Translations under genes and position numbers: made by a program | Shown: in pieces, positions 23,563 to 45,288 of the stretch | How the letters are laid out: each line of letters begins with the position of its first letter | How positions within the stretch are numbered: the stretch's first letter is position 1 | Assembly: GCF_003351785.1 (NCBI RefSeq) | Contig: NZ_CP031230.1 | Location: 1,488,001-1,552,000 of the forward strand | Length of the DNA stretch: 64,000 bases | From: Sporosarcina sp. PTS2304 | GTDB taxonomy: Bacteria > Bacillota > Bacilli > Bacillales_A > Planococcaceae | Direction: 5' to 3' | The notes under the pieces: model-generated | The model's database searches: none | What the model was told of the DNA's origin: nothing | Seen by the model: the letters and a program-made list of their open reading frames with translations, nothing else

Positions 23563-23591
23563 TTGACAAAATGCATAACTTCTTATATATT
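23563..23591 (+). promoter_or_regulatory. Promoter of the carotenoid-oxygenase-like gene
   Basis: TTGACA (23563-23568), 17 bases, TATATT (23586-23591): a near-consensus sigmaA promoter. A short inverted repeat TTCCC-TCAA-GGGAA (23620-23633) lies in the leader between the likely +1 and the ribosome site and may be an operator. Confidence 0.8.
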
Positions 23592-23660
23592 AAATATACA
23601 TTCCTCATAGAGAAAGACTTTCCCTCAAGGGAATACAATAATAAAAAGGAGTTGGCTAAT

Positions 23661-25145
23661 TTGATTAAAGTTCATAATGAGGTTAAAATAACTGTACCTG
23701 AAGAAACAGATAATCCCTTCTTAAAAGATTTATTTAAGCCAAATTCGAAAGAATATACAGCTGATACTGATTCATTAACAGTGTTAGGAGAAATACCAAG
23801 CGATTTGCATGGGATCTACGTAAGGAATACACATAACCAAGTACATGCGCCGATCGGAACATACCATCCTTTTGATGGGGATGGTATGTTACACGCTATT
23901 CATTTTGAAAATGGAAAAGCGACCTACAGAAATCGTTTTGTACGTACTCCTGGATTTCTAGCAGAACAAGCAGCAGGAAAATCTTTATGGCCTGGAATTT
24001 TAGAACCACATCTAGCTACTTATCGCGGATGGGGAGCTATCGGCGCTATGAAAGATAATGCTGGAACGGATGTACTCGGGCATGCCGGAAAACTAATTGC
24101 TAGTATGTCACAAGGCAGTGAACCTCATCGTTTAGATCCAATAACATTAGAACCTCTTGGGACGGATAGTTGGGGACGCGAACTGCAACCACATGGTATT
24201 GCATCTCATTATAAAGTAGATTTAAAAACAGGTGAAATGATGTTTTTTAATTACGGTCATTCCTATCCGTATATGAACTATGGTATTATTGATAAAAATA
24301 ATCAACTTGCTCATTATGTTCCAATTGAATTGCCTGGTACGCGTTGGCCGCATGACATGGGCATTACAGAACATTATTCAATTTTACATGACTTACCTTT
24401 CTTCTTTGATGATGAATTATTGAAGAAAGGAATTAGAAAAAATGAATTTCACCCCGAAGTACCTGCTAGATTTGGTGTAATTCCAAGACATGGCGATAAT
24501 TCCAAGATCAGATGGTTTGAAGCAACCTCATGCCATATTCTCCATGTAGCAAATTGCTTTGAAGACGGTGACGAAGTTGTCATGGATGCATGTGTATCAT
24601 TTAATCCTAAAAAGCCTGCTGTCGGTGTTCAAGGCGGAGATCGTTTTCAAAAAATTATTGATCATTTGGATAAACACAATACACAGACACATATGTATAG
24701 ATGGCGTTTCAACTTGAAAACTGGTAAAACAAAAGAAGAAGAAATTGATGATGAAGTCACAGAATTCCCAGTAGTAAGTAATGATTATCAAGGATATAAA
24801 TATCGTTATAGCTATAACACCTTATTCAAAAAAGGTGAATGGTCGTTTATAGGGATTAAAAAATATGATCTATTGATGGGTACTGCGACAAAATATGAAT
24901 ATGGCGAGCATCGCTATGGAGATGAGCCACAAATAGCTCTAAATCGAGATGCCTCTGCAGAAGATGATGGATATATTATTACTTTAGTCACTGATACACA
25001 AGAGGATCGTTCAGAATGCCTTATTCTTCGCGCTGATGATATAGAAGCTGGACCTGTTGCGCGCATTATTCTTCCGGAAAGAATCCAGACCGGAACACAT
25101 GCTTGCTGGGTAGAGGGAGATCGTATACACAACGAACGTGTATAA
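23661..25145 (+). CDS. Carotenoid/stilbene cleavage oxygenase family protein
   Basis: A 494-residue non-haem iron oxygenase of the carotenoid cleavage/lignostilbene dioxygenase family. It would split a C=C bond to give two carbonyl products. YVRNTHNQVHAPIGTYHPFD GDGM, PHGIASH, WPHDMGITEHY, ATSCHILHVANCFEDGDEVV and the C-terminal GTHACWVEG supply the expected four iron histidines. I chose TTG 23661 because AAGGAG (23647-23652) lies nine bases upstream and because an in-frame ATG at 23571 falls between the promoter's -35 and -10. Substrate might be an apocarotenoid, a stilbene or a phenylpropene; sequence cannot decide. It is followed by the IclR regulator. Confidence 0.85.
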   Translation: MIKVHNEVKITVPEETDNPFLKDLFKPNSKEYTADTDSLTVLGEIPSDLHGIYVRNTHNQVHAPIGTYHPFDGDGMLHAIHFENGKATYRNRFVRTPGFLAEQAAGKSLWPGILEPHLATYRGWGAIGAMKDNAGTDVLGHAGKLIASMSQGSEPHRLDPITLEPLGTDSWGRELQPHGIASHYKVDLKTGEMMFFNYGHSYPYMNYGIIDKNNQLAHYVPIELPGTRWPHDMGITEHYSILHDLPFFFDDELLKKGIRKNEFHPEVPARFGVIPRHGDNSKIRWFEATSCHILHVANCFEDGDEVVMDACVSFNPKKPAVGVQGGDRFQKIIDHLDKHNTQTHMYRWRFNLKTGKTKEEEIDDEVTEFPVVSNDYQGYKYRYSYNTLFKKGEWSFIGIKKYDLLMGTATKYEYGEHRYGDEPQIALNRDASAEDDGYIITLVTDTQEDRSECLILRADDIEAGPVARIILPERIQTGTHACWVEGDRIHNERV

Positions 25146-25298
25146 TAACTGTTGAAAATGGATGTAAATCTCTTTACATACTCTGTCTAGAGTTTATAAG
25201 GAGATTTTTCCTCTTTATTTTATACATCTGAACCGTTTATACATTATTTTAATTCGAATCAAAAATTACGCTTACTAAGTTTTAGAAGAGGATGATTT

Positions 25299-26084
25299 AT
25301 GCATATGGCCAATCATGTACCTGCAGTTGTAACTGCATTTAATATAGTAGAATTTTTATCGAAAAGCGAATGGAAATCTTCTTCTATGACACAAATATCA
25401 GAAATGTTGAATCTCAATAAAAGTACTTGTTTCCGGGTATTGAAAACGTTAGAATCTCTTGGATATATAAAATTTGATGATTTAACAAAGCAATATTCAC
25501 TTGGCTATCGTTTTGTTGTCATTGGAGAACGTGCAAAACAAATGAATACATATATTTCAGCAGTTAGTACTATTTTAGAAAAAATTGCGCATCCAGAAAT
25601 AACATTTGTCATTGTTAAGCGAACTTCTGATAACTTTTTAGCATATGTCGCTAAACAAGAACCAACTCTTCCAATCAGATTACAATTTAGCGGTGATATG
25701 TTCCCTATTCCATATGGTGCATTAGGTAAATGCTTTCTTTCCTATCTTCCAAAAGATGAACAAGTATCTATTTTAGAAAAACAACAAATTAATGGAGTGC
25801 TACCTCAATATACTACTCGAACAAACACATCACTAGCGCAACTTCAAAATGAACTTGAAACCATTCGAAGCACAGGTTTTGCGGAAAGTGATATGGAATA
25901 CATAGATACGATTTCTTCAATTGCCTGTCCAATTCTCGATGAAAATGGAGAGATAATTCTTGGTTTGGGTGCTTACATATTAAGTCATTATAAACCGTTG
26001 ATTGATACTGATAGCGTGAAAAAACTATTGAAATCGACTGCAGAGGAAATTTCTGAAGCAATTATCGGCTTAGAAATCTATTAA
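25299..26084 (+). CDS. IclR-family transcriptional regulator
   Basis: A 261-residue IclR protein: an N-terminal winged helix (MTQISEMLNLNKSTCFRVLK, about residues 30-50) and a GAF-like effector domain ending in ACPILDENGEIILGLGAY. IclR regulators usually sense an aromatic or keto-acid intermediate and control adjacent catabolic genes, so this is the likely specific regulator of the oxygenase and perhaps of the divergent operon. GAGG lies eight bases before the ATG. Confidence 0.9.
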   Translation: MHMANHVPAVVTAFNIVEFLSKSEWKSSSMTQISEMLNLNKSTCFRVLKTLESLGYIKFDDLTKQYSLGYRFVVIGERAKQMNTYISAVSTILEKIAHPEITFVIVKRTSDNFLAYVAKQEPTLPIRLQFSGDMFPIPYGALGKCFLSYLPKDEQVSILEKQQINGVLPQYTTRTNTSLAQLQNELETIRSTGFAESDMEYIDTISSIACPILDENGEIILGLGAYILSHYKPLIDTDSVKKLLKSTAEEISEAIIGLEIY

Positions 26085-26130
26085 AAAGGTCAAGTAGCGG
26101 ATTTTAAAAATACGCTACTTGATCTTTTTT
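26085..26130. terminator. Bidirectional terminator between the IclR gene and groEL
   Basis: AAAGGTCAAGTAGCG and CGCTACTTGATCTTT pair almost fully, with A/T runs outside on both strands. Confidence 0.9.
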
Positions 26131-44342: not shown

Positions 44343-44397
44343 TATAGAATTATCAGAATCCTATTAATTATTATTATTATTAATAAAGATAACTAAA

Positions 44398-44443
44398 ATT
44401 AAAGTGATATTTAAAAGACGATATTTAATAATATCACTTTAAT
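44398..44443. promoter_or_regulatory. 14-bp inverted repeat between divergent catabolic promoters
   Basis: ATTAAAGTGATATT (44398-44411) and AATATCACTTTAAT (44430-44443) are perfect inverted copies, 18 bases apart. The right arm touches the -35 box of the enoyl-CoA hydratase promoter and the left arm is about 55 bases upstream of the opposite promoter. This is the position of a regulator binding site. Confidence 0.65.
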
Positions 44444-44444
44444 G

Positions 44445-44473
44445 TTCACAATTTTTTCGACACGTGCTATATT
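44445..44473 (+). promoter_or_regulatory. Promoter of the enoyl-CoA hydratase gene
   Basis: TTCACA (44445-44450), 17 bases, TATATT (44468-44473). Confidence 0.75.
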
Positions 44474-44511
44474 ATGCATTAAATATGATCAAGTGAAAGG
44501 TTGTTTGAATT

Positions 44512-45288
44512 ATGCAAAATATTAATTATGTATTAGAAAATTCGGTAGCTTATGTAACGTTGAATCGTCCATCCGCGATGAACGCATTGAACTTTCAACT
44601 ACTTTGTGAGTTAGAACAAGTACTTGAAGACATTCGAATAGACTCGAGCATTCGTGCAGTTGTGTTCAGAGGGAACGGAGAAAAGGCTTTTAGTGCTGGT
44701 GCTGATTTAAAAGAACGTAAAACATTAACAGAAGCACAAGTACGTCGTAATGTTAATAAGATCGGTGAAGTATTTATATTAATAGATCATTTACCTCAAC
44801 CGACTATTGCCGCTATTAATGGTATTGCATTAGGAGGTGGGATGGAGCTTGCATTAGCTTGTGATTTTCGGGTTGCGTCAGAATCTGCCATTTTAGGATT
44901 GACAGAAACTGGGCTTGGAATTATTCCGGGAGCTGGGGGTACACAAAGACTTCCTCGTTTAATTGGCGAGTCAAAAGCTTTAGAGCTTATTTTAACCGCA
45001 AAAAGAATGACAGCACAAGAAGCTCTAGATTACGGGGTAGTAACACAAATAACATCTGCTGATCAACTAGATAATAAAGTAGATACTCTTTTACAATCTT
45101 TACTCGCGAATGCACCTATCGCGATTCAACAAGCAAAATTTTCTATTAAACAAGGGATGAATACCGACTTACATACTGGACTTGCGATTGAAAGAAAAGC
45201 ATACGAAATAACTTTGCCGACAGAAGACCGAATAGAAGCGCTAAAAGCATTTGCCGAAAAACGCAAACCTATATTTAAAGGGAAATAA
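44512..45288 (+). CDS. Enoyl-CoA hydratase/isomerase (crotonase) family protein
   Basis: A 258-residue crotonase. AFSAGADLKER forms one half of the oxyanion hole, INGIALGGGMELALACD the other, and GLGIIPGAGGTQRLPRL is the active-site segment. The ADLKER form is typical of the methylglutaconyl-CoA hydratase (AUH/YngF) subgroup, though simple enoyl-CoA hydration is equally possible. It supplies the missing hydration step for the beta-oxidation genes across the divergent promoter. Confidence 0.9.
   Translation: MQNINYVLENSVAYVTLNRPSAMNALNFQLLCELEQVLEDIRIDSSIRAVVFRGNGEKAFSAGADLKERKTLTEAQVRRNVNKIGEVFILIDHLPQPTIAAINGIALGGGMELALACDFRVASESAILGLTETGLGIIPGAGGTQRLPRLIGESKALELILTAKRMTAQEALDYGVVTQITSADQLDNKVDTLLQSLLANAPIAIQQAKFSIKQGMNTDLHTGLAIERKAYEITLPTEDRIEALKAFAEKRKPIFKGK

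Follow-up and report, generated by a model that had tools for sequence, protein, structure and literature searches.

The island and its genes

This report concerns a cluster of catabolic genes, referred to here as the island, in the complete 3.5 Mb genome of Sporosarcina sp. PTS2304, a soil-type bacterium that has Sporosarcina sp. P13 among its near relatives. The stretch of DNA that was analysed (the window) is 64,000 nucleotides long, and the coordinates of features given below are positions in it. Listing of open reading frames (ORFs), together with Pfam and NCBIfam profile scans, places 20 intact genes at 23.57-45.29 kb of the window. The original prediction, made from the sequence alone, had about nineteen related genes here; every gene that it named is there as an open frame and matches its Pfam family strongly, and the count is 20.

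Two of the genes are on the plus strand at one end of the island. These are OXY, an RPE65/carotenoid-oxygenase-family dioxygenase (23661-25145; 414 bits with Pfam RPE65 against a cut-off of 27), and an IclR-family regulator (25299-26084; Pfam IclR_C), which is 42-44% identical to the IclR proteins of OXY clusters in relatives (L102, L104 and L036). An enoyl-CoA hydratase, ECH (44512-45288; Pfam ECH_1), is on the plus strand at the other end. Between them, 16 minus-strand genes run head to tail from BKACE, which starts at 44225, to EtfA, which ends at 28026, with gaps of at most ~120 nucleotides (nt), and this run may be one operon. About 200 nt past EtfA on the same strand is a GroEL paralog with a His-rich tail (26129-27826; 808 bits with TIGR02348 against a cut-off of 582).

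In the order of reading, the minus-strand run begins with a beta-keto acid cleavage enzyme, BKACE (43374-44225; 326 bits with PF05853, cut-off 24.8), and two alpha/beta hydrolases. ABH2 (42594-43325; Pfam Abhydrolase_1) resembles enol-lactonases and C-C hydrolases and is PcaD-like, although below the cut-off, and ABH1 (41682-42593; Pfam Peptidase_S15/Abhydrolase) has 7d78 and GrgF (6lzh) as its nearest solved relatives. A short-chain dehydrogenase, SDR (40911-41678; Pfam adh_short_C2), is followed by a complete tripartite tricarboxylate transporter, consisting of the solute receptor TctC (39867-40880), TctB (39282-39746) and TctA (37770-39263; 449 bits), each matched by its own Pfam family. 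Next are an aldehyde dehydrogenase, ALDH (36303-37739; Pfam Aldedh), a regulator of the NtrC type with PAS, AAA and HTH parts in the profile scans (34459-36198), and the two subunits of a 3-oxoacid CoA-transferase, CTFA (33718-34422; TIGR02429) and CTFB (33099-33752; TIGR02428). The run closes with a 3-hydroxyacyl-CoA dehydrogenase, HBD (32222-33073; NF006722), an acyl-CoA dehydrogenase, ACAD (31035-32192; Pfam), a thiolase (29844-31031; Pfam Thiolase_N/C and TIGR01930), EtfB (29046-29822; Pfam ETF) and EtfA (28026-29000; Pfam ETF and ETF_alpha). The CTFA, CTFB, HBD and thiolase proteins score above the cut-offs of the TIGR and NF models named. According to the profile scans the island encodes neither a CoA ligase nor a ring-cleavage dioxygenase, as had been stated before, and the earlier view that activation relies on BKACE or the CoA-transferase holds, given this ligase-free island.

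The OXY ORF as listed begins at 23571. However, TTG at 23661 is a better start than 23563 or 23571, because the first ATG is located inside a promoter-like sequence, because AAGGAG precedes the TTG and because the OXY proteins of relatives begin at that residue. The promoter-like sequence, TTGACA-N17-TATATT (23563-23591, plus strand), is an 11/12 match to the consensus and only that; taken in its entirety, the region contains fewer such sites than shuffled sequences do. The candidate promoter of the BKACE operon (44314-44342, minus strand), also a consensus match only, has the identical hexamers and spacing. A 17-nt inverted repeat (94%; 44395-44446, strand undefined) between BKACE and ECH is a possible regulator site and was not found at the other promoters. 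No Rfam element was found at 20-50 kb of the window.

The oxygenase

The four iron-binding His residues of the lignostilbene dioxygenase LsdA (167, 218, 282 and 472) are invariant in OXY and in all 22 members of its clade. The substrate pocket is different. In lignostilbene dioxygenases Tyr101 and Lys134 bind the 4-hydroxyl or phenol of the substrate (PMC8191317). These two residues are Ile and Ser in OXY, and across the clade the first position is Ile, Met or Leu in 22/22 members and the second is Ser in 20/22. The phenol-site Phe59 is kept. The second-shell Glu135 is replaced by Gln in OXY and in all 22 members, while the remaining two acids look kept in the alignment. Since OXY lacks the Tyr101/Lys134 pair, its pocket is probably not one that suits 4-hydroxyaryl olefins, judging from the aligned residues.

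OXY thus shares the fold family and the four iron ligands with the lignostilbene/stilbenoid dioxygenases LsdA, LSD4 and NOV1, but it differs from them in having Ile/Ser for Tyr/Lys, Gln for Glu135 and different gene neighbors. Its best solved relative is a plant-type carotenoid 9,10-dioxygenase (PDB 9m3e), and its best NCBIfam match is NF052295, an 8'-apo-carotenoid 13,14-cleaving dioxygenase. OXY is set apart from them by its location among catabolic import and beta-oxidation genes and by a score of 240 bits with NF052295, far from the 675-bit cut-off. An apocarotenoid or terpenoid substrate is allowed by these results.

Parts of the island recur in other genomes

A search of 151 genomes of the family found OXY at 63-70% identity in three other genomes (G141, G085 and G103), as well as a C-terminal fragment (68%) in a fourth (G022). 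In all four (4/4) ABH2 and then BKACE come after OXY, within ~2 kb and on the same strand. Genomes G085 and G103 have the order TctBAC-GroEL-OXY-ABH2-BKACE-ALDH-amidohydrolase-IclR-ABH1. In G022 (L106, 9200-9739) OXY is cut to its C-terminal ~179 amino acids; ABH2 and BKACE still follow, and no GroEL is nearby.

A scan of named genomes covered 80 loci, 19 with OXY at 55% or more and 61 below. ABH2 is near OXY at 13 of the 19 and at none of the 61, and a second hydrolase family (F2) at 13 of the 19 against four of the 61; the loci are not phylogenetically independent, and so the counts are descriptive. ABH2 is a marker gene of the OXY clade, to which the 19 loci belong. The alphaproteobacterium Oceanibium sediminis has nearly the set of the window in one block, namely F2, ABH2, ABH1, OXY, ALDH, SDR, TctC, a TctB-like gene and TctA. 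Searches of plasmids with OXY identified related clusters in Cupriavidus and Polaromonas. Relatives of other island genes also adjoin OXY elsewhere; for example, copies of ALDH (57-65%) are beside OXY at L028, L036 and L141, copies of CTFA (58%) and CTFB (53%) adjoin it at L037/L140, and a 69.6% copy of ACAD is beside TctABC-GroEL-OXY-ABH2 in P13 (L022).

Because parts of the island are found side by side again in other genera and phyla, the grouping is not a matter of chance, and this supports the original prediction of a single catabolic unit. That prediction had named a lack of co-conservation in relatives as a result that would count against it. Instead, OXY-ABH2-BKACE are adjacent in four relatives, OXY-ALDH-SDR-TctABC-ABH1/ABH2 occur in Oceanibium, and P13 has a sister island.

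The P13 island occupies the corresponding place in the chromosome, with the same core genes on either side. In P13 (G160, contig C13) the flanking genes are 71-98% identical to those of the window, and they encode a thioredoxin-like protein, a methyltransferase and a GGDEF protein on the left and an aldolase and beyond on the right. Between them P13 has SDR-OXY-ALDH-TctCBA-ABH2-GroEL and, further on, FNR-P450-ALDH-amidohydrolase-CTFA-CTFB-OXY-ABH2-TctC. The island genes of the two strains are only 35-73% alike, against 71-98% for the backbone, and this difference points to repeated exchange of islands at one site. P13 encodes at least five OXY paralogs, 64-65% identical to the OXY of the window (L022, L024, L036, L037/L140 and L141), and they are found in varied catabolic settings that include P450, an Opp importer and TctABC. 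A general hydroxylation step was considered and rejected, as nothing closely related to the P450 that adjoins OXY in P13 is encoded in the PTS2304 genome. Outside the island, the window encodes a 1050-amino-acid protein, predicted to be secreted or membrane-anchored (45497-48649), for which P13 has nothing equivalent at this position.

BKACE and the beta-oxidation genes

The active-site residues of BKACE, the His of the HxH metal motif, Arg and the acids, align with those of Kce, the 3-keto-5-aminohexanoate cleavage enzyme (2y7d). The two proteins have family membership and the metal-binding and catalytic residues in common. However, BKACE scores 318 bits with the Kce equivalog model, below its cut-off of 382, it has Ser for the Glu of TGAETT, and the island is without lysine-fermentation genes.

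BKACE was not found in the distant OXY clusters of the same family at L111, L112 and L113 (genomes G150, G128 and G004) or in those of Cupriavidus, where a CoA ligase and a thiolase are beside OXY instead. Both routes take two carbons off a beta-keto acid, the ligase/thiolase route by ATP activation and the BKACE route by exchange with acetyl-CoA. This swap therefore fits a shared beta-keto-acid intermediate, and by this analogy we infer that such an acid is formed in the pathway of the island. The three distant clusters also contain ABH1 and have an intact sigma-54 activator and rpoN next door, and those at L112 and L113 have an FMN nitronate-monooxygenase-like gene and a 4HBT thioesterase. 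At six other loci (L005, L006, L007, L101, L107 and L108) BKACE occurs with an intact sigma-54 activator, a 3-hydroxyacyl/carnitine-dehydrogenase-like gene or both, which resembles a separate carnitine-type pathway.

The beta-oxidation enzymes have their relatives in clusters of the cyclohexanecarboxylate/pimeloyl-CoA type in three Planococcaceae genomes (L124, L125 and L126 in G141, G035 and G137). These clusters are led by a degenerate NtrC-type regulator and have AliA-, BadH- and BadI/MenB-like genes and a cyclohexanecarboxyl-CoA dehydrogenase. The regulator, HBD, ACAD and thiolase are common to them and the island, and the enzymes are 62-76% identical (thiolase 67-71%, ACAD 72-76%), the copies being beside orthologs of the regulator at 34459. 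Unlike these clusters, the island lacks AliA, BadH, BadI and the cyclohexanecarboxyl-CoA dehydrogenase and has BKACE and the CoA-transferase. Ring opening of the BadI type was rejected as a step, since the sole close match in the genome (57%, at genome position 1654664) is outside the island.

A His-tailed chaperonin

The island GroEL scores above the GroEL equivalog cut-off but lacks the Gly-Met-rich tail. It ends in GHGHMH, whereas the housekeeping GroEL of the genome, 73% alike, ends in GGMGGMGGMM. The OXY-linked GroELs comprise the island copy and those at L100, L102, L104, L022 and L140, and in all six, from five genomes, three or four of the six residues at the C-terminus are His (GHGHMH, MMHHHH, MIHHH, MVHHHH, MVHHHH and GHGHMH). 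The one GroEL near an OXY from outside the clade (L072) has a GGM tail. In a phylogenetic tree the His-tailed proteins are separated from two GGM-tailed GroELs with support of 87/89, and their branches are long. Convergent origin of the tails was rejected because they form one group with L072 as the outgroup (87/89), in a tree that sampled one housekeeping GroEL of the family. A plasmid search with GroEL returned general GroELs only.

Actinobacterial GroEL1 is known to have His-rich tails, which bind copper and have been connected with metal homeostasis (PMC10170517, PMC11978752). Like the island GroEL, mycobacterial GroEL1 is a His-tailed paralog beside a GGM-tailed housekeeping GroEL; the same papers report such tails in Actinobacteria only, whereas the island protein comes from Bacillota, and its gene is linked to that of a four-His iron oxygenase. 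This link suggests a dedicated metallo-chaperonin. The original prediction was right that a chaperonin and regulators are present, but it overlooked the His tail and the independence from sigma-54.

An NtrC-type regulator in a genome that lacks sigma-54

The regulator at 34459-36198 had been called a PAS regulator. It does have a PAS domain, but it is not a plain PAS regulator; it is a degenerate protein of the sigma-54-activator type. GEQGTEQE replaces the Walker A motif GxxGxGKE, with loss of its lysine, FLRN replaces the Walker B motif LLDE, with loss of the acid pair, and the GAFTGA loop is deleted. Neither sigma-54 domain (PF04552 and PF04963) is found in the complete PTS2304 genome, while rpoN is present in 11/11 relatives tested with PF04552. 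The orthologs in G141, G035 and G137, upstream of HBD-ECH-ACAD-thiolase in the cyclohexanecarboxylate-type cluster, are equally degenerate, despite rpoN in those genomes. All four clear NtrC-type regulators of PTS2304 are without GAFTGA (genome positions 1077835, 1522876, 1845074 and 1679066, the second being the one in the window).

Because the genome has no sigma-54, the regulator must, like TyrR, act together with the housekeeping sigma factor. It shares the NtrC architecture and the absence of GAFTGA with the sigma-54-free regulators of the TyrR type, but it also lacks the Walker A lysine and the Walker B acid pair, it is linked to beta-oxidation genes, and its genome has no sigma-54. Candidate sigma-54 promoters in the window (35 matches at two or fewer mismatches against 27.6 expected, none perfect) were dropped after rpoN proved absent.

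A proposed pathway and its alternatives

We think that the island was acquired and probably encodes one pathway for the import, C=C cleavage, beta-keto-acid cleavage and beta-oxidation of a non-phenolic unsaturated carboxylate. TctABC would import this compound, possibly an isoprenoid or apocarotenoid-type acid, and the non-haem iron enzyme OXY would split its C=C bond with O2. ALDH would oxidize the resulting aldehyde, and the remaining fragment would be converted to a beta-keto acid by ABH1, ABH2 and SDR. With acetyl-CoA, BKACE would yield acetoacetate and an acyl-CoA two carbons shorter, the acetoacetate being recovered as acetyl-CoA by CTFAB and thiolase, and the acyl-CoA being finished by ACAD-ETF, ECH, HBD and thiolase. 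An ATP-dependent ligase encoded in the island would then be unnecessary, and the His-tailed GroEL would fold, and perhaps metallate, OXY. The proposed order relies on established chemistry for these enzyme families, and we favor it because of the predicted beta-keto acid and because the CoA-transferase would be able to rescue the acetoacetate from BKACE.

Several observations weigh against this pathway. None of the proteobacterial or actinobacterial loci sampled has BKACE close to OXY, and therefore this end of the pathway would be lineage-specific; ECH has no counterpart in other OXY clusters, and two of the P13 OXY copies (L024 and L036) have no GroEL within 10 kb. OXY scores equally with the apocarotenoid and lignostilbene models (240 and 239 bits), both far below cut-off, and so its sequence singles out no substrate. 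The beta-oxidation block is also beside the cyclohexanecarboxylate-type cluster in relatives, and it would therefore be a generic module. The last point leads to the idea that two unrelated units are neighbors here, an OXY module and a generic operon for beta-oxidation of short-chain fatty acids or alicyclic acids with its own regulator, since regulator-HBD-ACAD-thiolase occur without OXY in G141, G035 and G137. We consider this unlikely; in the window the block runs on in line from BKACE-ABH-SDR-Tct-ALDH across gaps of ~100 nt, a single promoter-like site precedes BKACE, and in P13 CTFAB and the 69.6% ACAD are beside OXY.

The choice of substrate raises two other explanations. One is degradation of phenylpropenoids or stilbenes, in which OXY would be an oxygenase of the lignostilbene/isoeugenol type and the other enzymes would handle the aldehyde and the side chain. 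ALDH is present and the solved proteins nearest to OXY include LsdA-type dioxygenases, but the loss of the phenol-binding pair (PMC8191317), with hydrophobic residues or Ser in at least 20/22 clade members, disfavors it, as do the absence of a ring-cleavage gene and the widely missed cut-offs of the NCBIfam LSD models. It is improbable, and the phenylpropenoid or stilbene side chain of the original prediction is not supported. The other is breakdown of abscisic acid (ABA) or another plant apocarotenoid hormone. As an unsaturated isoprenoid carboxylate, ABA would suit TctABC, ALDH and OXY with its apolar pocket, and bacteria are known to remove its side chain in C2 steps, with metabolites given and no genes named (PMC7996341, PMC9599779). 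However, no link from a gene to ABA was found, and the reported dehydrovomifoliol and rhodococcal acid are explained by loss of acetate and not by a C=C cleavage that leaves two carbonyls (PMC7996341, PMC9599779), which makes this the least probable of the explanations considered.

The single pathway outlined above can be taken a step further. An undescribed, horizontally spread pathway would join O2-dependent C=C cleavage by the non-phenolic clade of carotenoid oxygenases to beta-keto-acid cleavage, and its Planococcaceae version would include a fast-evolving chaperonin lineage, with a His tail expected inside the cage, that folds and iron-loads OXY and so would be a client-dedicated metallo-chaperonin. 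In this full form the proposal is tentative and rather unlikely.

Conclusions

Literature searches returned no described pathway for this module. The island is a real, transferable and undescribed catabolic module in a known biochemical style. The transferable part consists of OXY and ABH2, which are usually accompanied by a second hydrolase, TctC-type import and ALDH, and it ranges over Bacillota, Actinobacteria and Alpha- and Betaproteobacteria, so that finding the substrate in one organism would probably make annotation possible in many. Finally, the island makes it possible to ask directly if a His-tailed GroEL serves one given metalloenzyme, which has been left open for mycobacterial GroEL1. 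The PTS2304 genome itself is one from which sigma-54 is gone, yet NtrC-type regulators lacking the loop that contacts sigma-54 persist in it.

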